Below are positions 6,229-64,000 of a stretch of 64,000 nt of DNA, one piece after another. Position 1 is the first letter of the stretch. Every line of letters starts with the position of its first letter. The position numbers were made by a program, and so were the translations under genes. Below the pieces are notes generated by a model. That model made no database searches, was not told the origin of the DNA, and worked only from the letters and a program-made list of their open reading frames with translations. The stretch is from Actinotalea endophytica (GTDB lineage: Bacteria; Actinomycetota; Actinomycetes; Actinomycetales; Cellulomonadaceae): positions 549,091 to 613,090 of the forward strand of contig NZ_JAOVZU010000001.1 of NCBI RefSeq assembly GCF_025717005.1, read 5' to 3'.

Positions 6229-7077
6229 TCAGACGTGGTCGCGCCAGGAGTGCTCGGGCGCGTACCCGATCAGGTCGCGGGCCGCGTCGATCCCGAGCAG
6301 GGTCTCGTTGCCGACCAGCTCGCGGGTCAGCGGGACGTCCGGGAAGACCTCGGCCATCAGGTCGGCGGAGGGCCGCGCCATGATCGTGTCCGCCGCGGCG
6401 ATGATGACGTTGTGGGACCCGCTGGTCTCCCGCTCCAGGCCCAGGCGGCAGGCGAGCGCGACGTCGCGCACGTCCACGTAGCCCCACAGGTTCCAGCGCC
6501 GCTTCTGTGCGTCGTCCTGGTACCCGGGCACCGCCGCGTAGTCCTCGACCGTGTGGATGTTGGACAGCCGTAGACCGACGAACGGGATCCCGGACCATCC
6601 GCTGATCAGCTCCGCGGCCTGCTCGCCGAGCACCTTCGACAGGGCGTAGGTGCTGTTCGGGACCGGGAAGTGGGCCTCGTCGACCGGCGCGTAGCGTGGC
6701 GGCACGTCGAACGGCAGGCCCAGGGTGGTCTCGCTGGAGGCCCAGACGACCTTGCGCAGCCCGAGGGTCTTCGCGGCGAGGAACATGTGGTGGTTGGCGG
6801 CCACGTTGACGTCCAGCGTCCGCGCGTCCGGGTAGCGCCCGTCCGACGGGATGTTGCCCAGGTGGATCACGGCGTCCACGCCCTCGAGGACCTCGACGGT
6901 CTGGCCGTGGTCGGTGAGGTCGGCGAGCATCAGCGGGGTGCCCAGGACCTCCACGGCGTCCGGCCCGGCCCGGCCCACCAGGTCGGTCGCCCGCACCTGG
7001 TACCCGTGTGCGAGCAGGTCCGCGACCACTGCTCGTCCGGCCTTGCCCCATGCCCCTGTGACCGCGATCGTCTCCAT
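6229..7077 (-). CDS. NAD(P)-dependent epimerase/dehydratase family protein
   Basis: Extended short-chain dehydrogenase of 282 residues. The nucleotide-binding GAWGKAG (G8, G11, G14) opens a Rossmann fold, acidic D32 after beta-2 favours NAD, and the catalytic Tyr-Lys pair is Y144/K148 in STYALSK, with serines at 114-115. The middle NVAANHHMFLAAK and ASSETTLG segments resemble NAD-dependent sugar epimerases and uronate dehydrogenase-like proteins. The actual substrate cannot be deduced. A CAGGAT hexamer ends 6 bases before the ATG. The gene is convergent with the upstream hydrolase and divergent from the MFS exporter, separated from it by a repeat-containing spacer. Confidence 0.75.
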   Translation of the reverse strand: METIAVTGAWGKAGRAVVADLLAHGYQVRATDLVGRAGPDAVEVLGTPLMLADLTDHGQTVEVLEGVDAVIHLGNIPSDGRYPDARTLDVNVAANHHMFLAAKTLGLRKVVWASSETTLGLPFDVPPRYAPVDEAHFPVPNSTYALSKVLGEQAAELISGWSGIPFVGLRLSNIHTVEDYAAVPGYQDDAQKRRWNLWGYVDVRDVALACRLGLERETSGSHNVIIAAADTIMARPSADLMAEVFPDVPLTRELVGNETLLGIDAARDLIGYAPEHSWRDHV

Positions 7078-7136
7078 GGCTCCATCCTGCCCGTGGGGTG
7101 TGCGGCGTGCTCGGGGTACGGGGACCGAACCTGGCC

Positions 7137-7185
7137 GACCGCGGACTCCGGACCGCGGACTCCGGACCGCGGACTCCGGACCGCG
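7137..7185. repeat. 14-bp tandem repeat, 3.5 copies
   Basis: The unit GACCGCGGACTCCG is repeated perfectly at 7137-7150, 7151-7164 and 7165-7178, followed by a half copy to 7185. It lies in the divergent spacer between the epimerase and the MFS exporter. Confidence 0.95.
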
Positions 7186-7273
7186 CACCCGGCGCGGGCC
7201 CGGGTGCCGGGACGCGCTCGGGCCCGGGCCCCGGACCGCACGGACCGGCCCACGGTCGTAGGCTCCGTGGTCG

Positions 7274-8701
7274 ATGAGCGACGTGAACGCCGAGCGTGCC
7301 GCCGGCCCGGCCGCACCCGACCCGCGACGGTGGAAGGCCCTCAGCGTCGCCCTCACCGCAGGGTTCATGACCCTGCTCGACGTGAGCATCGTCAACGTCG
7401 CCCTACCGTCGATCCGCGAGGCGCTCGGCGCCTCCGACGCCGCGCTGCAGTGGATCGTCTCCGGCTACGCGTTGAGCTTCGGCCTGGTGCTCGTGGCGTC
7501 CGGCCGGCTCGGCGACGCGCGGGGCCGCCGGACGATGTTCGTCGCGGGCGTCGCCGTGTTCACCCTGGCCAGCCTCACCGGTGGGCTGGCGCCGGCCGCC
7601 GGGTGGCTGGTCGCCGCACGGCTCGCCCAGGGTGTCGGTGGCGGCATGATCAACCCCCAGGTCTCCGGGTTGATCCAGCAGCTGTTCAGCGGCGCGGAGC
7701 GGGGCCGGGCCTTCGGCCGGCTCGGCACCACGATCGGGATCTCCACGGCGGTCGGCCCGGTGCTCGGCGGGGTGATCCTGGCCGCGATGGGCCCCGAGCA
7801 CGGCTGGCGCTGGGTGTTCCTGGTCAACCTTCCTGTGGGTCTGCTCACCATCGTCCTGGCCCGGTGCTACATCGACCCCGTGCGGGACCCCGAGCCCGCG
7901 CACGACCTCGACCCCTGGGGTGCGCTGCTGCTCGGCGTCGGCGTCGTCGGGGTGCTCTGGCCGCTGGTCTCCGAGGAGTGGGCTCCGGTCGACGCGGCCG
8001 TGCTCGCGGCGGGCGTGGTCGGTCTCGCGGCGTTCCTCTGGTGGGAGCGGCGCCAGGAGCGCCGCGGCCGGGTGCCGATGGTGCGGCCGTCGCTGTTCGC
8101 GCGGCAGGGCTTCGCCGCGGGTGCGTTGCTCGGGATGGTCTACTTCTCCGGCTTCACCGGGCTGTTCTTCGTGCTGACGTTGTACCTGCAGAGCGGCCTC
8201 GGCTACAGCCCGCTGCAGGCCGGGCTCACGATCACGCCGTTCGCGCTCGGGTCCGCGGTGACCGCCGCGGTCGGCGGTCGGCTGGTCAGCCGGATGGGCC
8301 GGTGGGTCGTGGTGGTCGGGCTCGTGGTGGTCGCGGTCGGCCTGGTCGCGACCGCCCTGGTGTTCGCCGCGGACCCCGGCGACGTGATCGGCTGGTGGCT
8401 GGTCGGGCCGCTGCTGGTCGCGGGGCTGGGCAGCGGGTTCGTGGTCTCGCCGAACGTGACCCTCACGCTCGAGCACGTCCCGGTGGCCCAGGCCGGCACG
8501 GCCGGCGGGGTGCTGAACACCGGTCAGCGGCTCGGGACCGCCGCAGGCGTCGCGCTCGTCGGTGCGCTGTACTTCCGCGGGGTCGCCGCCGGTGACGCCA
8601 CGACCGCCGCGGTCCACGGTCTGGTGACGACCGTCGCGCTGGTCACGGCTGCCCTCGTGGTGGCGGTCGTCGACGTGGTCCAGCGCGGCCGCACCGACTG
8701 A
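7274..8701 (+). CDS. MFS transporter, DHA2 (EmrB/QacA) drug exporter family
   Basis: Inner-membrane proton-coupled exporter of 475 residues with about 14 hydrophobic segments, the number typical of DHA2 antiporters. Family motifs are present: LDVSIVNVALP at 35-45, the loop 2-3 motif GRLGDARGRR at 77-86 and the antiporter motif C-like GPVLGG at 161-166. It probably expels a toxic compound or antibiotic; no substrate is suggested by context. A TAGGCT hexamer ends 9 bases before the ATG, so the 5' leader would be at most a few bases. No local regulator gene sits next to it, but the 14-bp tandem repeat lies about 90 bases upstream. Confidence 0.85.
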   Translation: MSDVNAERAAGPAAPDPRRWKALSVALTAGFMTLLDVSIVNVALPSIREALGASDAALQWIVSGYALSFGLVLVASGRLGDARGRRTMFVAGVAVFTLASLTGGLAPAAGWLVAARLAQGVGGGMINPQVSGLIQQLFSGAERGRAFGRLGTTIGISTAVGPVLGGVILAAMGPEHGWRWVFLVNLPVGLLTIVLARCYIDPVRDPEPAHDLDPWGALLLGVGVVGVLWPLVSEEWAPVDAAVLAAGVVGLAAFLWWERRQERRGRVPMVRPSLFARQGFAAGALLGMVYFSGFTGLFFVLTLYLQSGLGYSPLQAGLTITPFALGSAVTAAVGGRLVSRMGRWVVVVGLVVVAVGLVATALVFAADPGDVIGWWLVGPLLVAGLGSGFVVSPNVTLTLEHVPVAQAGTAGGVLNTGQRLGTAAGVALVGALYFRGVAAGDATTAAVHGLVTTVALVTAALVVAVVDVVQRGRTD

Positions 8702-8721
8702 CCGGCACTCGACCGTCGGCG

Positions 8722-8762
8722 GGTGCCGGTCGACCGGTCCGGGGGCCCGCCCGACCGGCACC
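8722..8762. terminator. Hairpin between convergent MFS and beta-galactosidase genes
   Basis: An 11-bp perfect inverted repeat (8722-8732 with 8752-8762, loop of 19 bases) fills the 84-base convergent spacer and could end transcription from both sides. Confidence 0.55.
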
Positions 8763-8785
8763 GAGGCGCCGGCCGGGCGGTCGGG

Positions 8786-11700
8786 TCAGCGGATGCCCTG
8801 GAAGCCGAACCGGAACTCGAGGTCGCCGGCGGGCAGCCGGAACTCCGGGTGCGGCTCGGCGCCCCACGAGTCGTCCCCGCCGACCCCGCGTCGCTGCAGC
8901 GCCGGGCGCAGGACGGTGTGCTGCACGGGTGGCAGGTCCACCGCGTGGCGGGCGTTCTCGACCTCGAACGGTGTCCACGGCAGCGCGGAGAGCTCCATGC
9001 CCTCGGCGCAGTCCAGCCGCAGGCCGGCGCCGCGATCGTCGGTGACGGTCGCCCAGCGCACCCCCGTGTGGCTGCCGGACTCCTGCGGCCGCATGTAGGT
9101 CGTGAGCTGGTCGGCGACGTCGGCGTCGTAGACCCCGAGGCGGGCGCCGTTGCGCCGGTCGACATAGCTCTCCGCCGGGCCGTCGCCGTACCAGCGGAGC
9201 CGGTGGAGGTCCGCATCGACCGTGAGCAGCATGCCGAGCTCGGGCAGGTCGGGCAGTCCCTCGCCCGGCCGCAGGTGCACGGTGACCTCCACGTGGCCGC
9301 CGCCGTCCACGCGGTAGGTGACGTCGCACTCGGTGGCGGGCGCGGTGGGCAGCTCGTAGGCGTACCGGATCTCGACCGCGTCCTCGCCGATCTCGACCGC
9401 GGGCACCGGCTGCCCGGGGCGAGGCCGGCGGTACCGGCTGGCCAGCAGCCACGGGCCGTCCCGGAACGGCATGCCCCACCCGCGCTCGTTCGACGTCGGT
9501 GCGTGCCAGAAGCTCGGGTAGGGGATGTCGCGCAGCAGCTCGTGCCCGCCGTCCGGGGTCAGGCCGAACCGGTAGGACACCAGCCCGCCGTGCAGCCTGG
9601 AGAACAGCGCGGTGAAGTGCTGCCCCCGGACCCCGACGTTGTGCGTGGACTCGATCACCTCGGGAGCCGCGGCCGGCACCCGACGAGCGGGGCGCGTGCC
9701 CGCCACGGTGAGCACCTCCTGCTGCCAGGCCACCTCGTGGCCCGCGGGGGCCCAGGCGGTCGCCTCCGCCAGCCGGAACGAGACGTCGACGGTGTACTCG
9801 CCGGGCGTCCGGGGCAGCTCCAGCGGCAGCGGGTAGGACCGCGTGGCCTGCGGCGCGACGTCCGTGTCCAGCCGGACCTCGCGCACCGTCACGCCCTCGC
9901 GGGCGAGGCGCACCACGCAGTCCAGGTGCGCCGTGCCGGTGAAGAGCTGACGGTTGTCGACCTCGACGGAGTCGTTGGTGACCGCGATCCGCAGCGGCTG
10001 GTAGAGGTAGCGAACCTCCTGCAGCGCCGGGGTCGGTGTGCGGTCGGCGAACACGATGCCGTTCGCGCTGAACTCGTAGTCGGCCGGTCGGTCGCCGAAG
10101 TCGCCGCCGTAGCCGGCGAACGTCCGCCCGTGCCGGTCGGTCGTGACCAGCGTCTGGTCGGCGAAGTCCCAGATGAAGCCGCCCTGGAACAGTGGGTCCT
10201 GGTAGGCGAGGTCGAGGTACTTGTCCACGGCCCCGAACGAGTTGCCCATCGAGTGCGCGTACTCGCACAGCACGTAGGGCTTGTCGCGGTGGGTGCTCAG
10301 GTACTCCTCGATCTCGGTGGCCGGCGCGTACATCCGGCTGACCACGTCCGTGGTGTCCGGGTAGCGCGGGTCCCAGTGCACGCCCTCGTAGTGCACCGGC
10401 CGGGTGTCGACCGAACGGAACCAGTCCGCCACGTCGGCGATGTTCTTCCCGCCGAACGACTCGTTGCCGCAGGACCACATCACGACGCACGCGTGGTTCT
10501 TGTCCCGCTCGACCGTGCTCGCCGCCCGGTCCATGAGGGTGGCGCGCCACTCCGGACGGTCGCCCGGCAGGGCCCGGGCCACGGTCAGCTCACCGCGGGC
10601 GACCTTGTCCCACATCCCGTGCGACTCGAGGTTCATCTCGTCGATCACGTAGAGGCCGTAGCGGTCGCACAGGTCGTAGAAGACCGAGCTGTTCGGGTAG
10701 TGGCTGGTCCGCACCGAGTCGATCCCGGCCGCCTTCATCAGCCGGATGTCCGCCTCGATCAGCTCGGCGGACATCACCCGGCCCTGCGGGCCGAACTCGT
10801 GACGGTTGACGCCCTTGAAGACGATCCGCTGCCCGTTGATCCGCAGCAGGCCGTCCTCGATGCCGAACCGCCGCACGCCGACCTTCTGCGGGACGACCTC
10901 GGTCACCGCGCCCTGGGCGTCGAGCACCTCGATCCGCAGGTCGTACAGGTACGGGTCCTCCGCGCTCCACAGCCGAGGCGCGGTGAGGTCGACGCCGAGG
11001 TCCCCGTCACCGAGGTCGGCGAGGTCGCCCACGCCGACCAGCGTCGCGCGCACCGAGCCGGGGCCGGCGAGCGCGGTGCTCAGCGTCACCCGGGCCGAGC
11101 CGAGGTCGTCGGCCACCTCGGTGCGGACCCGCAGGTCCTCGAGGTGCGTGGCGGGGCGGCGGTGCAGCACGACGTCACGGAACAGCCCGGAGAACCGGAA
11201 GAAGTCCTGGTCCTCGATCCAGGAGGCCGCGCTGAAGCGGACCACCTGGACCGCGAGCGCGTTCTCGCCGTCCACCAGGGCCGGGGTCAGGTCGAACTCG
11301 GACGGGGTGAACGAGTCGGTCGCGTAGCCGATCCAGGTCCCGTTGAGCCAGACCGCGAGCGCGCTCTCCGCACCGTGGAAGACGATCGTGAGGCGCTCAC
11401 CCGGGCCGAGCGGCTCGTCGAGCGTGAAGGTGGTGCGGTAGCCCGCGACCTGGTTCTCCCGGGTGGGCACCTGCCCGGGCTGGACGTCCGCGAGGCCGTC
11501 CCACGGGTACTGCACGTTGACGTACTGCGGCCGGCCGTAGCCGTGCAGCTGCAGGTGCCCCGGGACCGGGATGTCGTCCCAGCCGCTGGTGTCGAGCCCG
11601 GGCTGCTCCCAGCCGGGCAGAACCTGCGACGGGTTCTTCGCGTGGTGCAGCTTCCACAGCCCGTTGAGGCAGGTCTCCAGGCTGCTGCTGCCGCCGGCGA

Positions 11701-56606: not shown

Positions 56607-57095
56607 GCGGCGGGTCGTCGGTATCGTCCTGCCATAGCCGTCCTCCTGCCCTGAGAGTCCGGCGGGCCGGCTCGGGAACACATGGCGTCGATCGACTATC
56701 GCTCAGTCACCGTGCACATCGCCAGAGGCTCGGGCACGTCGGCGACGACGCTCGCGGCGTCGGCGGCGGGTTCGTCAGCGGCCGGTCCGGCGCATCGCCG
56801 CTCCGGAGCCGAGGAACACCAGGCCGCCGCCCGCGATGACGAGCCACATGGGGAAGGGGTCGGTGACCACGAGGAGGCAGACGACGGCGGCCGCGATGCC
56901 GATGAGACCGACGATCATCATGGCCAGCCCCTGACTGTGCGCGACGTGGGGATGGGTAGACATGCGCGATCACCTTCTCAGCACGATTCTCGCGACCTGC
57001 GGCTGGACGGCTCAAGGGGCGAACGCCCCTGAACCGACCTCGGCCGGCCGCCGATCTGGCAGCCTGGACGGGCTGATCAAGATCCGGGGGTAGTG
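56607..57095. other. Spacer between GH32 gene and hydrolase pair
   Basis: Apart from the small membrane-protein gene on the minus strand (56775-56963) I see no gene or convincing terminator here; the reading frames on the plus strand lack homology and start sites. Confidence 0.5.
56775..56963 (-). CDS. Small two-helix membrane protein
   Basis: Predicted protein of 62 residues with two hydrophobic segments (about 13-32 and 36-55) separated by DPFPM and a basic C-terminal end, so both ends face the same side. GAAGGTGA lies upstream of the ATG at a workable distance. The segment composition is that of a real membrane protein, unlike the out-of-frame translations around it. No family is recognised, and it stands alone in a 489-base spacer. 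Confidence 0.5.
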   Translation of the reverse strand: MSTHPHVAHSQGLAMMIVGLIGIAAAVVCLLVVTDPFPMWLVIAGGGLVFLGSGAAMRRTGR

Positions 57096-57950
57096 ATGCA
57101 GATTCGGGATGTCTCGTTGTCCGTCGACGTCGCGGGCAGCGGGCCCCCGCTCGCGCTGATGCACGGCGGCCCGGGCGCCGACCACTGGAGCATGCAGCCG
57201 TTCCGGCGTCTGTCGGACGAGCACACCACCGTGTTCTACGACCACCGCTGCAACGGGCGCTCCGGCGGCGAGGCGTCCTCGCTGACCTGGGAGAACCTCA
57301 CCGCGGACGCCGACGCGCTGCGCGAGGCGCTCGGGTTCGACCGGTGGGCGGTGCTGGGCCACTCGTTCGGCGGGCACGTCGCACTCGAGTACGCGCTGCG
57401 CTACCCGGACCGGGTCTCCCACCTGGTGCTGCTCGACACGGCCGGCGAGGCCCGGTGGGCGCGTGACGAGGCCCCGGAGCTGCTCACCGCACGCGGGTTC
57501 CCGCCGGAGAAGGTCGAGCTGGTGCGGCGCTGGTTCCGCGGCGAGTTCGAGCCGAAGGAGATGATGCGGATCCTGATGCGCATCGGCCCCGCGTACTACT
57601 CGCGGCCCTCGACGTGGCTGGTGATGCGCGAGCTGCTCGAGGGCGGGTGGCGCGCGAAGACCCGGCCCGAGGCGCTGATCGAGGCCGGCAAGGTCCTGCT
57701 GCCCGGATGGTCGGTCATGGACCGGCTGCACGAGCTGCGCGTGCCGACCCTGGTGGTGGCCGGGGTCGACGACTTCCTCTTCCCGCCGGAGTGTCAGGAG
57801 CAGCTCGCAGCGGCGATCCCCGGCGCGCGGCTGGAGCTGGTCGAGGGCGCCGGGCACAACGCCCACTCCGAGCAGCCGGGGGTGACGTTGGGGCTCGTGC
57901 GGGAGTTCCTCGCCGGGCCGGGTGATGTTCCCGGGTCGGACGATGCCTGA
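57096..57950 (+). CDS. Alpha/beta hydrolase, proline-iminopeptidase-like
   Basis: Serine hydrolase of 284 residues. HGGPGADHW (oxyanion, about residues 23-31), YDHRCNGRS, the nucleophile elbow GHSFGGH with Ser near residue 89, the acid Asp in AGVDDFLFP and the His in GAGHNAHSE give the proline iminopeptidase/tropinesterase pattern. The ATG at 57096 follows GGGGG; a GTG one codon before is the alternative. Its last eight bases overlap a second hydrolase gene, so both are co-translated. Substrate unknown. Confidence 0.78.
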   Translation: MQIRDVSLSVDVAGSGPPLALMHGGPGADHWSMQPFRRLSDEHTTVFYDHRCNGRSGGEASSLTWENLTADADALREALGFDRWAVLGHSFGGHVALEYALRYPDRVSHLVLLDTAGEARWARDEAPELLTARGFPPEKVELVRRWFRGEFEPKEMMRILMRIGPAYYSRPSTWLVMRELLEGGWRAKTRPEALIEAGKVLLPGWSVMDRLHELRVPTLVVAGVDDFLFPPECQEQLAAAIPGARLELVEGAGHNAHSEQPGVTLGLVREFLAGPGDVPGSDDA

Positions 57951-58782
57951 GCGAGGTGACCGGCCGCGGGTCGGCGACCTGTTCGTCGACGTCGCGGGCG
58001 ACCCCGGGCAGCCGGCGATCGTGTTCGTGCACGGCGGCGGGCCGAGCGGCCGGATGTGGCGTGCGCACCTGGACGCGCTCGGCGACCGGTACCACTGCCT
58101 GGCGCCGGACCTGCCGGGGTTCGGGCGTAGCAACCACCTGGCGCCGGTGTCGCTGGACCAGGCGGCGGGGCTCGTCGCGGAGCTGATCGAGACCCGGGTG
58201 CCGGGCGGTCGGGCGAGCGTGGTCGGGTTGTCGTACGGCGGGTCGGTCGTGCTCTCGCTGATGGGCGGGCGTGCGGACGTCCTGGACCGCGTGGTGGTCG
58301 ACGGTGCGGGTGTGCTGACCTGGTGGGGAGACCGGCTGGTGATCGCCGGGGTGGCCGCGGTGTCGCCGATCATCCGGACGCGAGCCGTGCACGCTGTGCT
58401 CGGACGGGTCGGCATGAGCGGGCTCGCCGACGAGCTGCGCACCGCGTCACCGGCGGCCTTCCGGCGCGCGTTCGCCGAAGGCTGGGTGGCGCCGCTCTCG
58501 CGCGCGCTGCTCGCGGCACCGTGCCCGACCCTGCTGGTGGGTGGCGAGAACGAGCAGACCGTCCGGGCGTCGAACGCCGCGCTCGCGGCGCTGCTGCCGA
58601 GCGCCGAGGCGCGCTTCGCGCCGGCTCACGGCCACGGCTGGTTCGCGTGGGAGCTGGACCTGCACATCCGGATGGTCGAGGCGTGGGTCGCGGGTGGGGA
58701 GCTGCCGTCGGAGCTCGGGGTGGAGCCGCCGTCGCAGGCCGCGGTGGAGCGGGTGCTCGCACGGCTCAGCCCGCGTGGATGA
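57943..58782 (+). CDS. Alpha/beta hydrolase, second of a tandem pair
   Basis: Serine hydrolase of 279 residues, clearly different from its neighbour: VHGGGPSGRMW, APDLPGFGRS, the elbow GLSYGGS (Leu instead of His before Ser), a late acidic residue in VGGENEQT and the His in AHGHGW. The start is uncertain: the ATG at 57943 overlaps the preceding stop region, while an ATG at 57925 is also possible. The 3' end overlaps the convergent DeoR gene by 17 bases. Role unknown. Confidence 0.72.
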   Translation: MPERGDRPRVGDLFVDVAGDPGQPAIVFVHGGGPSGRMWRAHLDALGDRYHCLAPDLPGFGRSNHLAPVSLDQAAGLVAELIETRVPGGRASVVGLSYGGSVVLSLMGGRADVLDRVVVDGAGVLTWWGDRLVIAGVAAVSPIIRTRAVHAVLGRVGMSGLADELRTASPAAFRRAFAEGWVAPLSRALLAAPCPTLLVGGENEQTVRASNAALAALLPSAEARFAPAHGHGWFAWELDLHIRMVEAWVAGGELPSELGVEPPSQAAVERVLARLSPRG

Positions 58783-59524
58783 GCGGAACGCCGACCTGCT
58801 GGAGAGCGAGCACCGAGGGGTCGTCGGCGGGCGCGTCGGTGATGACGGCGGTGATGTCGGTGAAGGCGGCGACCTGGAACTGCGATGCGGCGCCGATCTT
58901 CTCCGAGCTCGCCAGCACGTAGGTGTCGGCCGAGCGGCGTGCCAGGGCGCGCTTCATCGCAGCCTCCTCGCTGTCGCCGGTGGTGAGCTGCCGCTCCGGG
59001 TGGACGCCCGTGACGCCGATGAAGCACAGGTCGGCGGAGAGCATCGACACCGCCTCGAGCGCGGCGGACCCGCACGTGACGATCGAGTGCTTGAACAGCC
59101 GCCCGCCGATCACCGTGACGTCGATCCGCGGGTGGGGGACCAGGGCGGCCGCGATCGTCGGGCTGTGCGTGATGACCGAGCACTCCAGCGACGGCGGTAG
59201 GGCGGCGACCAGGGCGAGGGCCGTGGTGCCGCCGTCGATGATCACGGTGCTGCCGGGGGTGACGAGGCGTGCCGCGGTGCGCGCGACCCGGGTCTTGCCG
59301 GCGGGCTCGATCGCCTCGCGCTGGGCGTAGGGAGCGACGGCGGGCGACGCGGGCAGGGCGCCGCCGTACACGCGCTGGCAGAGCCCCTCGGCCGCGAGCT
59401 CGCGCAGGTCCCGGCGGATGCTGTCCTCGGAGAGGTCGAGGTCGCGTGCTACCTGCTTGGCGACGATCTTGCCCTCGGCCGCCAGGCGGTCGAGGAGGTA
59501 CTGGCGGCGTTCGCTCGCGAGCAT
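58766..59524 (-). CDS. DeoR/GlpR-family transcriptional regulator
   Basis: Repressor of 252 residues: winged helix SERRQYLLDRLAAEG to LSEDSIRRDLRELAAEG (about residues 4-50) and the sensor domain with VIIDGGTTALAL, GGRLFKHSIVTCG and ASSEKIGAASQF. The ATG at 59524 has GAAGGAG 6 bases upstream. It diverges from a DUF4406-like gene 57 bases away. No sugar catabolic genes are adjacent, so its target is unclear; autoregulation or the divergent gene are the nearest candidates. Confidence 0.82.
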   Translation of the reverse strand: MLASERRQYLLDRLAAEGKIVAKQVARDLDLSEDSIRRDLRELAAEGLCQRVYGGALPASPAVAPYAQREAIEPAGKTRVARTAARLVTPGSTVIIDGGTTALALVAALPPSLECSVITHSPTIAAALVPHPRIDVTVIGGRLFKHSIVTCGSAALEAVSMLSADLCFIGVTGVHPERQLTTGDSEEAAMKRALARRSADTYVLASSEKIGAASQFQVAAFTDITAVITDAPADDPSVLALQQVGVPLIHAG

Positions 59525-59580
59525 TCGCACTCCTTCACGGTCTTGCACGATTCTACATGATGGGCTGTAAGGTCGCGGGC

Positions 59581-59976
59581 ATGACACAGCGTCCTTTGAT
59601 GATCCTGATCGCCGGCCCGTACCGGTCCGGCACCGGCGACGACCCTGAGCTGATGGCTGCGAACCTGCGGCGGCTCGAGGAGGCGGCTTGGCCGATCTTC
59701 CTGGCCGGGCATGTTCCGATGATCGGGGAGTGGGTCGCGCTGCCGGTGCTGGCCAGCGCCGGGGCGTCGGGGCCGCTGGATCCGCTCGCTGCGGAGGTGA
59801 TGTACCCGACGGCGGAGCGGCTGCTCCAGCACTGCGACGGGGTGCTGCGGCTGCCGGGGGAGTCGATCGGGGCGGATCAGGATGTCGCGATCGCGCTGGG
59901 GCGGGGGATTCCGGTGTACTGGCGGCTCGACGAGGTTCCGGGGGTCGCACAGGGCCCCGGACCGATCAGGAGGTGA
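59581..59976 (+). CDS. DUF4406-like (nucleoside deoxyribosyltransferase-fold) protein
   Basis: Protein of 131 residues with a single Rossmann-like fold: LMILIAGPYRSG at the N-terminus, ALPVLA and DPLAAEVMYPTAERLL in the middle and GADQDVAIALGRGIPVYW near the end. This resembles DUF4406 proteins, relatives of nucleoside 2-deoxyribosyltransferases, but their catalytic role is not established. The promoter region is short (57 bases shared with the divergent DeoR gene). The stop TGA is part of the Shine-Dalgarno sequence of the following tiny ORF. Confidence 0.65.
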   Translation: MTQRPLMILIAGPYRSGTGDDPELMAANLRRLEEAAWPIFLAGHVPMIGEWVALPVLASAGASGPLDPLAAEVMYPTAERLLQHCDGVLRLPGESIGADQDVAIALGRGIPVYWRLDEVPGVAQGPGPIRR

Positions 59977-59980
59977 GCCC

Positions 59981-60070
59981 ATGAGCCCACACGCGCCGGG
60001 GCGGCCCGGCTTGCCGCCGGTCGAGAGCCCGAGCGTGCCGCCTCGCGGGCCGGCGGGGCGGCGCTCATGA
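59981..60070 (+). CDS. 29-residue Pro/Arg-rich coupling ORF
   Basis: The ATG at 59981 has a near-perfect AGGAGGTGA 7 bases upstream, and the ORF runs 29 codons to a TGA that overlaps the esterase ATG (ATGA, 60067-60070). The esterase has no ribosome site of its own, so translating this small ORF probably delivers ribosomes to it. The peptide is rich in Pro, Gly and Arg with no recognisable function. Confidence 0.55.
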   Translation: MSPHAPGRPGLPPVESPSVPPRGPAGRRS

Positions 60071-61002
60071 CGAGTGACGCCGTCCACCCGGAGCTACGCC
60101 GATCCTTGAGGCGCGTCCCGCGGATGGACTTCCGGAAGCCCGCCGTCCGGACGCTCTCGCGCTGGGGCACGCGCCTCGCGCCGGGGCACCGCGTCCGCGG
60201 CGTCCGAACCCGCTGGGTCGATGCGGGTCCCGTCCGAGCCCGTGTCTACGAGCCGCTCTCCTCCGGTGCGCCGCACCCCGGGCTGCTCTGGCTGCACGGC
60301 GGCGGGCTCGTGATCGGCGATCCCCGGCAGGACGACCGCCTCTGTGCGGGCGCCGCTGCCGAGCTCGGCATCACGGTCGTCTCCCCGCGGTACCGGCTGG
60401 CCCCGGAGCACCCGTTCCCGGCCGCGCTCGATGACGCCGCCGCCGCGTGGCGCTGGACGCAGGAGCACACGGCCGAGCTGGGCGTCGAGCCCGGCGCGGT
60501 CGCCCTCGGCGGCGAGAGCGCCGGCGGTGGGCTCGCCGCGTGCCTCGCCCAGCTGCTGCGGGACACCTCCGAGGATCGACCGGTCGCCCAGTGGCTGTTC
60601 GCCCCGATGCTCGACGACCGCACCGCCGCCCGACGCCACCTCGACGAGCTCGACCACCCGGTCTGGAACAACACCGCGAACCGCTTCGGCTGGCGTGCGT
60701 ACCTCGGGGTGGAGCCTGGGATCGAGGATCTTCGTGACTACGCGGCAGCAGCCCGGCGCCTCGACCTCTCGGGCCTGCCGCCGACGTGGATCTGTGCCGG
60801 AGACATCGAGCTGTTCCACGACGAGGTGGTCGACTACGCGACGCGGTTGGGGGACGCAGGAGTCGACACCACGCTCGACATCGTCCCTGGCGGCGCCCAC
60901 GGGTTCGAGAACTGGGCGGCCACCACGCCACTGGCGACCTCGCTGGTCGCGCGAGCGCGCGCCTGGCTCGGCGCTGTGCTCGATCGCGCCCGCGCGACCT
61001 GA
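60067..61002 (+). CDS. Alpha/beta hydrolase, hormone-sensitive-lipase family (acetyl esterase-like)
   Basis: Esterase of 311 residues of the HSL (family IV) type: the oxyanion motif HGGGLVIG near residues 77-84, YRLAPEHPFPAAL, the nucleophile elbow GESAGGG, acid Asp in AGDIELFHDE and the His in GGAHGFENW. It has no signal peptide. Translation seems coupled to the tiny upstream ORF. It ends at a hairpin facing the minus-strand island. Substrates of this family are short-chain acyl esters. Confidence 0.85.
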   Translation: MTSDAVHPELRRSLRRVPRMDFRKPAVRTLSRWGTRLAPGHRVRGVRTRWVDAGPVRARVYEPLSSGAPHPGLLWLHGGGLVIGDPRQDDRLCAGAAAELGITVVSPRYRLAPEHPFPAALDDAAAAWRWTQEHTAELGVEPGAVALGGESAGGGLAACLAQLLRDTSEDRPVAQWLFAPMLDDRTAARRHLDELDHPVWNNTANRFGWRAYLGVEPGIEDLRDYAAAARRLDLSGLPPTWICAGDIELFHDEVVDYATRLGDAGVDTTLDIVPGGAHGFENWAATTPLATSLVARARAWLGAVLDRARAT

Positions 61003-61134: not shown

Positions 61135-61713
61135 TTAGGGGTGCGACCCCGCGTAGAACTCGTCCACGACCGGGGCCGAGCGGACCCAGAGGTCGCGGAG
61201 CCGCACCACGCAGTCGCGGGCCAACGCCGCTGGATCGATCCCAGGGCCTTCGACTGGCTCGACATAGCTCCAGAAGGCCCACCAGGTGTGGGTCTGGCCG
61301 CCGAGTTGGCTACGTAGCGGGGAGAACGCGGCGGTGAGTCCCCGCATGTGGGTCGGGTCGGCCTGGGCTCCGTCATCGCGCACTGCCACGTACGGCCACG
61401 GATCCCCTCGTCCGATCCCAAGGAGCGAGTCCGGGCGCCACTCGATCACCACCGCGACCAGGCCGGCGTCACGGCGCGGCCAGCTGACGCGGCGCATGCC
61501 GACTCGGGGCCGCTCGCCGCGATCGAGGTCGGCGTCGTAGGGCTCGGCGCCGAGCTCGGCGGCAAGCTCCTCGACGGCCGGCGCGAGCGCGAGCAGGTGG
61601 CGGTGCACGAGCTCGGAGCCCTCTTCACGCAAGTCAGCCCAGGTCTCAATGTCGCGCTGATGGTCGAGGTAGAACCATGCGCGGGCGTCAGCGTCATCGC
61701 GGATTTCAGACAT
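61135..61713 (-). CDS. Unknown 192-residue protein linked to a nuclease-like gene
   Basis: Protein of 192 residues with no family I recognise. It opens with an Asp-rich helix followed by a Glu/Ala/Leu helix pair (about residues 20-58), a basic strand (MRRVSWPRR), VAVVIEWRPDSL and an aromatic WWAFWSYVEP segment near residue 148 before a final helix. The ATG at 61713 lies inside the end of the upstream PD-(D/E)XK-like gene (8-base overlap), so it is translated with it. It may be a partner subunit of that nuclease; no catalytic motif is visible. Confidence 0.65.
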   Translation of the reverse strand: MSEIRDDADARAWFYLDHQRDIETWADLREEGSELVHRHLLALAPAVEELAAELGAEPYDADLDRGERPRVGMRRVSWPRRDAGLVAVVIEWRPDSLLGIGRGDPWPYVAVRDDGAQADPTHMRGLTAAFSPLRSQLGGQTHTWWAFWSYVEPVEGPGIDPAALARDCVVRLRDLWVRSAPVVDEFYAGSHP

Positions 61714-62482
61714 GGTGGTATGCCTCCAGGGTCTCGATGAAGTCCAGGACGCCGGGTTGGCATGGGCCACCTGCGACAGCCGCTCGCAGTAGCCCTGCGA
61801 CGTCCGCCCAGGAGAGGGGTTGCCATCGTTTCGCCGAGGCATTTGCCGTCATTGGCCTGCGTGAGCCGCGGGTGAGGAAGACGAAGGTCGGTGCCATCTC
61901 GTCAGCCCACAGGGTATGCAGGCGGTCGAGCTGGTCCGGTTGCTCCGGTGCGTACACCTTGGCTTCCACGACGAGCGTCCACGACGGTGCGTAGACGACC
62001 AGGTCGGCGCGGGTGGTCGGCAAGGTCTCGCCGGACGGGGTCTCCTGACGCGACTCCTCGGTGACCACGCGCACGTCGGCTCCCGCAACTGGCGCCTCCA
62101 GGCCGAGGTGCTCGGCAATCGCATCCAGGGCGGAGTTACCGAGTTGGTGGCGCCCGTCGGAGCGAAGTACCCAGGCCAGGCCACGGGTGAGGAGCACCTC
62201 GCTGTCCTGCAGCCGTAGCGCGGCGAGGAGTGTGCGGGCCCCGGACGTCCAGGCGCCGCGGGTGACCAGCGCCGCCTGTGTGTGCCGCATCTCGGCGAGA
62301 TTGGCTCCCCACTGGCGAACCTGCGCCTTCTGGCGCTCGACGACGGCGCGGTCCAACGCCGTCCACTCAGACCGCAGGCGGTCATGGTGGGCGTTCCACG
62401 CGAGTGCCTCGTCGGCGTTGCCGTAGATGCTGTTGGCGTCGCGCGCACCACGCGCCTGCCACCGCATCCCACTGTCGTCCAT
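61706..62482 (-). CDS. PD-(D/E)XK nuclease superfamily protein
   Basis: Protein of 258 residues. The C-terminal half has the nuclease signature: acidic E142/E143, D160 in TRADLVVYA and E173-A-K175 in LVVEAKVYA, followed by Q184 and a LDRL helix, the order seen in restriction-like endonucleases. The N-terminal 90 residues are helical and charged. It lies between a DUF262/HNH-RAMA gene and the 192-residue gene on the same strand, 106 bases after the former. This context suggests defence against phages or foreign DNA; that is inference. Confidence 0.7.
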   Translation of the reverse strand: MDDSGMRWQARGARDANSIYGNADEALAWNAHHDRLRSEWTALDRAVVERQKAQVRQWGANLAEMRHTQAALVTRGAWTSGARTLLAALRLQDSEVLLTRGLAWVLRSDGRHQLGNSALDAIAEHLGLEAPVAGADVRVVTEESRQETPSGETLPTTRADLVVYAPSWTLVVEAKVYAPEQPDQLDRLHTLWADEMAPTFVFLTRGSRRPMTANASAKRWQPLSWADVAGLLRAAVAGGPCQPGVLDFIETLEAYHHV

Positions 62483-62588
62483 CGCGTGCCATCTTCGCGC
62501 ACTTGGTCAAGGGCGCGTCAACGTCGGGCCGGGTGATCCGTTGGGGCAGGTCGAGCCCACGTGACGCGCGGCGGGCGTGCGGCGCCGT

Positions 62589-64000
62589 TCATCCCGCGTG
62601 TTCGGCAACGACCTCGGTCAGTGGGGCGACGCCGCCATCGCGCTCGAGGGCCCAGAACTCAAACCCGGAGATGTTGGTGACTTCGAGGTGCCGAGCGGCA
62701 TCGTCGAGGGTGTCGAACTCGTGGAGCCCGTCGATGAGGATGGTGCCGTCCTCACTAATGACGGCGTCGACCTGCCAGTCGGGGTCGACCGGGTCGAGGA
62801 GATCGCCGGGCTTCAGGATGCCCGCCGCGAGGAGCTCGGAGAGCGGCAGTTCTGCCGGCGCGGTGTCCTCAACCGTGACTGGCTCGGTGGGCGCGTGGGC
62901 TTGTCCGCCGCTGAGGAGCGCGAAGGCGTCCCGGATGACGGTCGAGATCTTCTGACGGCGGGCTTCAAGGAACTCGTCGTACTCCATGTGCTCCCAGCCG
63001 TCCGGCAGCGCGTGCCAGTAGTGCTGCTTCATCAGCCACTCCGAGTCCGCCCCGCGTTCGGCGACCAAGTCGGGCCAGTACTCGGCGGGTGGCCGGTCGG
63101 AGATAGCGATGTTCGTGGCCCAGTCGGTGGGTGCGAAGTTTGCGACCTGGTTGATTCGCTTCGTGTCGGTCGTGCCCAGGACGTTCTGCTGGTAGGCGCG
63201 CGGGAAGAGATGGTGGCCTTCGAGTCCCTTGATAGCGGGCAGCGCGGGGTCCATCCAGTCACGAACCTTCATATTGAGCATGAACATGTCGGCATCGAGG
63301 ATGTTCAGCGCGGCCAGGTAGCACTGGTAGACCGGCGACAAAGCCGTGCTCGAGGTGACTAGGTGCTGGGGCACGTTGAACGTCCAGTAGTCGTCCGTGA
63401 GCGCGGTCCTGATCGTCTGGTTGACCAGCCGCTCGAACCCTGCGGCATCACCGTTGGCCAGGCTCCCGAACATGTCGAGGTCCTTCTGGAGCTGCGACTC
63501 GCCCGAGCCGGTGTACCGGGAGGTCATCTGGGACATGAAGACCCACCGTGCGACCAGGATGCGCAGCCGCTGCAGATCGACACCGTATCGGGTGCGCCCG
63601 AGCATGAAGACGACGGAGCTGTAGACGAGGTTCATGTTGGACGTAATGCCCTTGCTGGACCGGAAGCCGGCCGTCTGGACGGCACGGATGAACTCCGTCC
63701 AGTTGACCCGGTCGGTGACGATCGGCAGCGCCTTCTGGAGCAGGCTGAGCTCGGCCGCCTGCCGGTCCGGGTCGACGACGCCACTGATCCGGTCCTTCGC
63801 CTGAAGCGCGGCGTAGGCATCGAGCAACTTCGCGCGGTTCTGCCCGACGGCGACCATGGCGCGCACGACATGTCCCGTCTCGACGGGGAGGAACGGGTTC
63901 TTGGGTGTCCAGTCGATGCGCCGCCCGGCAATCTCGCTCGCCCGGTCCGGAGTGACGCGGGAGTTGCGCGCGAAGTCCTCGATGCGCTCGCGGCCGTCCG
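62589..64000 (-). CDS. GmrSD-like (DUF262-type) protein with HNH region and C-terminal RAMA-like domain (N-terminus outside window)
   Basis: The frame is open to the window edge, so the visible 470 residues are the C-terminal part; the DUF262 ATPase/nuclease N-terminus is expected beyond it. A His-His-containing motif, GLEGHHLFPRAY, followed by Asn in NQVANFAPTDWATN, matches the HNH-type DUF1524 part of GmrSD and related modification-dependent restriction proteins. The last about 90 residues (LSELLAAGILKPGD, then DGTILIDG and ISGFEFWAL) read like a RAMA domain, found in restriction and methylase proteins. A GTG at 63866 is not the real start because conserved-looking sequence continues upstream of it. 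Confidence 0.7.
   Translation of the reverse strand, partial: DGRERIEDFARNSRVTPDRASEIAGRRIDWTPKNPFLPVETGHVVRAMVAVGQNRAKLLDAYAALQAKDRISGVVDPDRQAAELSLLQKALPIVTDRVNWTEFIRAVQTAGFRSSKGITSNMNLVYSSVVFMLGRTRYGVDLQRLRILVARWVFMSQMTSRYTGSGESQLQKDLDMFGSLANGDAAGFERLVNQTIRTALTDDYWTFNVPQHLVTSSTALSPVYQCYLAALNILDADMFMLNMKVRDWMDPALPAIKGLEGHHLFPRAYQQNVLGTTDTKRINQVANFAPTDWATNIAISDRPPAEYWPDLVAERGADSEWLMKQHYWHALPDGWEHMEYDEFLEARRQKISTVIRDAFALLSGGQAHAPTEPVTVEDTAPAELPLSELLAAGILKPGDLLDPVDPDWQVDAVISEDGTILIDGLHEFDTLDDAARHLEVTNISGFEFWALERDGGVAPLTEVVAEHAG

Follow-up and report, generated by a model that had tools for sequence, protein, structure and literature searches.

Restriction enzymes that join a DUF262 domain to an HNH nuclease are described, in the available parts of two sources, as nucleases for modified DNA that are stimulated by nucleoside triphosphates (PMC12707154; PMC10952713). 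In GmrSD/BrxU (PDB 7p9k, 7p9m) a DUF262 domain with the motif DGQQR and an HNH nuclease share one chain. The available part of PMC4619093 lists type I restriction-modification (R-M) domains among those enriched around GmrSD and names DUF4357, DUF4268 and DNA_binding_1 as extra GmrSD domains; GmrSD with additional C-terminal domains and type I neighbours is already published. RAMA is a proposed reader of adenine methylation, and one study was unable to confirm that it prefers N6-methyladenine (6mA; PMC11037411, available part). PDC-S26/PDDEXK_4 (PF14281) is a candidate defence nuclease family, and the PDC-S26 models listed are single chains of 351–415 amino acids (aa). Here we describe one edge of a 64,000-nucleotide stretch of the Actinotalea endophytica genome (the window; positions 549091–613090 of contig NZ_JAOVZU010000001.1), where a gene for a GmrSD-type protein with a RAMA-like C-terminal tail is followed by two overlapping genes, a PDDEXK_4 nuclease half of 258 aa and a protein of 192 aa. 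Like other GmrSD genes this one adjoins a type I R-M operon; unlike GmrSD/BrxU it carries the extra RAMA tail, and the nuclease differs from the known family in being spread over two genes. With a probability of roughly 0.7 we read the locus as two separate defence modules of known kinds, neighbours at the edge of a defence island, one of which has a two-gene nuclease.

A preliminary description made from the sequence of the window had placed three co-directed minus-strand genes at its edge, and all three open reading frames (ORFs) were found at these positions. The largest, cut by the window edge, was completed from the genome sequence: beyond position 64000 it runs on to 64688 and encodes 699 aa, with a start that we chose (ATG after AGGGGAA). 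The flanking sequence beyond the edge is called locus L005 (window coordinate = L005 + 55909). The features in question are:

62589–64688 (62589–64000 inside the window; L005 6680–8779), minus strand: GmrSD-type restriction enzyme with a RAMA tail, 699 aa, as predicted from domains, conservation and model
61706–62482, minus strand: putative PDDEXK_4 nuclease half, 258 aa, with D160/E173-x-K175, from Pfam, PADLOC and conservation
61135–61713, minus strand: 192-aa protein, most likely the C-terminal half of a PDDEXK_4/PDC-S26 protein, from size, order, global alignment and the copy in a second locus (L132)
61706–61713, minus strand: 8-nt start/stop overlap of the 258-aa and 192-aa genes, ATGTCTGA; GTGTCTGA in the second copy, L132

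The 699-aa protein appears to be a GmrSD-type (type IV) restriction enzyme in a single chain, extended by a C-terminal reader domain; we infer the activity and the target of the enzyme. GmrSD_N/DUF262 spans aa 14–225 (Pfam E 3e-30) and is matched by all 43 aligned RAMA-class proteins (the window's included), in which the DGQQR at positions 84–88 (D84–R88), a predicted nucleotide pocket, is invariant. The preliminary description had pointed to an HNH nuclease; in the corresponding region (about aa 489–530) H493, N513 and N517 are invariant in the same 43 proteins, and E490, H492, L494, P496 and N526 are conserved in at least 90%. An AlphaFold2 model (mean pLDDT, the predicted local distance difference test, 86.5) found BrxU as its best PDB fold match in Foldseek (E 1.2e-11) and SspE as the next (E 4e-6); the sole PDB match by sequence was 7p9k. 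Residues and fold together suggest an HNH nuclease of the GmrSD type. Two results weigh against this assignment: no Pfam DUF1524 or HNH model matches the protein or any of the 43 aligned ones, and the template-modelling (TM) scores to BrxU are low (0.30–0.36), so that the domains may agree while their arrangement may not. The RAMA-like tail was recovered at aa 608–691 with E 1.6e-5, below the curated Pfam cut-off; 31 of the 43 proteins match RAMA at E ≤ 0.01 (best 4.1e-19), which argues for a RAMA domain in the family. Further Foldseek matches were CcrM (E 0.025) and MPND chains (E 0.4–0.8, probability 0.99–1.00, about 90 columns, target TM 0.62–0.64); judged by alignment length these probably cover the tail and are supportive only. 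In PADLOC the N-terminal part matches the DUF262 proteins HEC-05 (E 7.5e-32) and PDC-M55C (E 3e-25) and the tail PDC-S14 (E 4e-9), the best stretches each covering only part of the protein.

Relatives of this protein were found at E ≤ 1e-20 in 21 of 297 genomes of the order (the window's own included), and neighbourhoods were counted in the best 80 loci of at least 555 confirmed relatives in genome contigs. We divided these loci by hand, from tail length, into a RAMA class (47) and others (33); L097, with a match running to aa 696, may be misfiled. SLFN_AlbA_2 was present in 12 of the 17 non-RAMA-class relatives that were scanned, for example in L099, and the remaining ones stop after the core. 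This shows a GmrSD core whose C-terminal domain can be exchanged, being RAMA or SLFN_AlbA_2, or can be absent. A core with swappable tails is a natural set for studying how type IV enzymes change target. The words ‘RAMA’ and ‘AlbA’ have 0 occurrences in the main text of PMC4619093; since 5 of the 43 RAMA-class proteins match DUF4357, part of this tail variety may be what that study saw. When ‘RAMA domain’ and ‘DUF262’ were paired in a literature search, the review PMC12707154 was found, in its available part, to describe no such fusion beyond mentioning work on RAMA-HNH fusions. Of the 80 loci, 14 have type I (hsd) genes no more than 2.5 kb from GmrSD, in line with the enrichment reported in the available part of PMC4619093. 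A tie of type I R-M to the RAMA form in particular was considered and is unsupported, hsd genes lying within this distance in 9 of 47 RAMA-class and 5 of 33 other loci. In one locus (L037, 5633–14486) a GmrSD-RAMA gene separates the hsdS and hsdR genes of a type I operon and is followed by a 115-aa ORF with a weak DUF4357 match below the cut-off.

The 258-aa protein, described beforehand as a PD-(D/E)XK nuclease, lies above the Pfam cut-off for PDDEXK_4 (E 3.9e-6) and matches the first half of the PADLOC PDC-S26 models. D160, E173 and K175 are conserved in L132; the protein has a PF14281 core with a D...ExK site and is a candidate nuclease. Where the family models have one chain of about 350–415 aa, there are two genes in the window and in L132. 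PDDEXK_4 is rare in the class: the genome of the window and one other have it, 2 of 246 in all. A search of the order with the 258-aa protein gave 3 of 297 genomes, namely itself and two weak matches that did not recur by tblastn; there was no match in genome contigs or plasmids, nor in viral contigs (searched as an alignment), and one weak match in phages (E 7e-5). In three PDDEXK_4 relatives (L043 1423–2613, L052 7622–8803 and L057 795–1943) the lysine of E-x-K is apparently replaced (ENF or ENY), and by sequence these proteins are possibly inactive or altered.

The 192-aa gene had been taken for an unknown partner of the nuclease. Its product indeed has no match at E ≤ 1 in Pfam, NCBIfam, PADLOC or PHROGs; from size, gene order and sequence comparison we take it as most likely, though not proven, to be no new subunit but the separated C-terminal half of the nuclease. 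Two Streptomyces loci that are close relatives of each other (L083, L086) encode a single-chain PDDEXK_4 protein of 396–398 aa on the same strand about 190 bp past GmrSD-RAMA, a distance that depends on the start we chose. The 258-aa protein aligns with the first half of this chain (BLASTP E 4e-19; hhalign E 1.4e-14 over aa 82–257), and the rest, about 190 aa, corresponds to the 192-aa protein in length and order. In global alignments to the two Streptomyces C-terminal halves the 192-aa protein outscored every one of the 435 control ORFs (z 4.85 and 4.73); for comparison, z is 4.7 when the C-terminal half of L086 is aligned with that of L135, a family member from Novosphingobium. Searched against 394 genomes of the class, the Streptomyces protein matched the window's genome and one of a different family, L132; it furthermore matched 3 plasmid records and no viral contig. 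L132 has a 232-aa nuclease ORF and a 199-aa ORF that are ordered as in the window, overlap by GTGTCTGA and share 47% and 46% identity, respectively, with the window's two proteins; the 8-nt pattern common to both pairs is RTGTCTGA. The two-gene arrangement and its 8-nt overlap have thus persisted in different families, an argument against an error of sequencing. The ‘unknown partner’ becomes a testable claim, namely that a candidate defence nuclease family with known single-chain members also has a conserved two-gene form. A literature search by the name ‘PDC-S26’ found nothing; the novelty of the two-gene PDDEXK_4 rests on the family models being single-chain, the literature not having been searched by that name.

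Several results weigh against the 192-aa protein as a C-terminal half. Local and profile comparisons with the Streptomyces half were not significant (BLASTP E 0.044 and 2.1; hhalign E 0.047 and 0.23, at a probability of at most about 1%), and a two-sequence profile built with the L132 copy did not retrieve the Streptomyces proteins. The five other PDDEXK_4 C-terminal halves among the seven targets gave z −0.6 to 2.8, the L132 copy reached no more than z 2.5 against the Streptomyces halves, with 4 of 435 controls equally good, and the 435 controls are not independent because many of them are related GmrSD or Hsd ORFs. The AlphaFold2 model of the 192-aa protein was unusable (pLDDT 42). Such results, together with the missing family match, would suit an unrelated small partner of the nuclease, be it an inhibitor, an immunity protein or a specificity subunit; size, position and order nevertheless fit the C-terminal half that the 258-aa gene lacks, and with the global alignments to the two Streptomyces halves beating every control we regard an unrelated partner as rather unlikely. 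An ancestral single gene that was recently split by mutation, or that looks split through a sequencing error, would fit the existence of single-chain forms and the 8-nt overlap of the halves, but the same split with the RTGTCTGA overlap stands in another family at 46–47% protein identity. L132 largely refutes this explanation, which we consider extremely improbable. Other candidate homologues of the 192-aa protein were rejected. Besides itself, the search of 297 genomes of the order yielded one match (E 8e-4), antisense to a long ORF, and that of 396 genomes of the phylum yielded five (E 6e-4 to 9e-3). We judged these five spurious, as none has an adjoining PDDEXK gene (E ≤ 1e-3); two did not recur by tblastn, others overlap long ORFs in a different frame or on the opposite strand, and the one in L047 lies inside a gene that by eye looks unrelated. 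None was found in plasmids or viral contigs.

The preliminary description had further proposed that all three genes may form an undescribed restriction arrangement. A composite system, in which GmrSD-RAMA would sense modified DNA and the PDDEXK pair would act with it as a second nuclease, is favoured by the shared strand and the spacing of 106 bp; a simple scan found no terminator in this gap, so that GmrSD and the nuclease pair may be co-transcribed, a point that counts against two separate modules. Elsewhere PDDEXK_4 was above the Pfam cut-off in 4 of the 80 GmrSD loci: adjacent and co-directed in the Streptomyces loci L083 and L086, adjacent and divergent in Brachybacterium L052, where it is of the L043 type, and about 7 kb off in L057. 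Given how rare the family is (2 of 246 genomes), this makes a loose association above background likely, with the reservation that the two counts differ in taxa and methods; it is qualified by the fact that both are defence-type genes, which gather in islands. On the other side, 75 of the 80 GmrSD loci, some being short contigs, have no PDDEXK_4 match, and the Streptomyces GmrSD loci L082 and L084 are without such a gene. None of five loci that were retrieved through PDDEXK_4 similarity itself (L132–L136) has a GmrSD relative in its stretch, and the 19.9 kb of L132 contain no GmrSD or hsd relative by tblastn (E ≤ 1e-3). In L034/L050 (5871–7984), from a different family, GmrSD is 93% identical to that of the window and is broken into two frames. 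All that these loci share with L005 is its positions 6681–8865, covering GmrSD and some 86 bp upstream of it, at 91% nucleotide identity; no relative of the nuclease pair or of the window's hsd genes was found within 16.7 kb. The base composition of the nuclease pair (GC 0.705 and 0.689) differs from that of the block formed by GmrSD (0.649) and the type I R-M operon (hsdMSR and ygjP, 0.59–0.64); the window has 0.72. A counterpart of the 192-aa gene stands next to the nuclease in another family (L132). No second locus was seen with three separate genes in the window's order; together, only GmrSD and the single-chain nuclease recur, in L083/L086. Since GmrSD occurs without the pair, the pair without GmrSD (L132) and the nuclease also as a single chain, there are at least two modules, and a composite system seems improbable to us. 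Still more doubtful is a two-nuclease system that arose more than once, in which the RAMA enzyme would detect modification and cut first, the product then being degraded by the PDDEXK nuclease, whose two subunits would assemble only if they are co-translated. The support cited for repeated origin is the adjacent, co-directed order here and in Streptomyces and the divergent one in Brachybacterium. On the GmrSD tree five PDDEXK-labelled rows need at least 2 changes against nine hsd-labelled rows, 29 ungrouped rows being uncounted. L074, a candidate from the PDDEXK profile search, was dropped, its Pfam match lying below the cut-off and HSDR_N being equally good. In L083 and L086 (6773–8917) a further ORF immediately precedes GmrSD-RAMA and the single-chain nuclease gene; the one in L083 is a UvrD-type helicase (GajB-like in PADLOC).

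With two neighbouring modules as the preferred reading, the DUF262 domain of the first would bind and hydrolyse a nucleotide and thereby gate the HNH nuclease, and the C-terminal RAMA domain may supply, or add to, the recognition of modified DNA. In the second module the 258-aa product would carry the D...ExK site and the 192-aa product would be the separated C-terminal domain, probably made in step with it by coupling through the 8-nt overlap; the two products would then assemble into one presumably active nuclease. Type I methyltransferases produce 6mA, so that a plain 6mA-triggered GmrSD-RAMA enzyme would threaten its host. RAMA would hence have to recognize a different mark or context, or serve to restrain the enzyme. 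The RAMA form beside an adenine-methylating type I system therefore raises a question of self-protection, namely what RAMA reads.

Beyond the window edge, the type I R-M operon is complete and ordinary, of the known kind with a YgjP-like peptidase; it is a third module outside the three-gene arrangement. The neighbouring features are:

65047–72515 in the window frame (L005 9138–16606), divergent from GmrSD: type I R-M operon hsdM-hsdS-hsdR with a YgjP-like metallopeptidase, from Pfam
65047–67488, divergent from GmrSD: hsdM, Pfam N6_Mtase
67488–68699, divergent from GmrSD: hsdS, Pfam Methylase_S (E 1.6e-10)
68696–71803, divergent from GmrSD: hsdR, Pfam HSDR_N
71790–72515, divergent from GmrSD: ygjP, YgjP-like peptidase gene overlapping hsdR, Pfam YgjP-like
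L005 16915–17999, minus strand: HTH_17/excisionase-type protein and PIN-domain protein (RSP_2648-like, below cut-off), adjoining the R-M operon
L005 19082–19156: tRNA-Lys

The HTH_17/PIN genes are a possible toxin-antitoxin pair. A search with 13-mers gave no integration repeat at the tRNA-Lys, and no shared 14-mers were found at the island edges. Four genes on the opposite side of the three-gene arrangement have a GC content of 0.73–0.75. Beside it, at window positions 57093–61002, three alpha/beta-hydrolase genes and a gene for a DeoR-type repressor (58766–59533) were identified by Pfam, which are not part of it.

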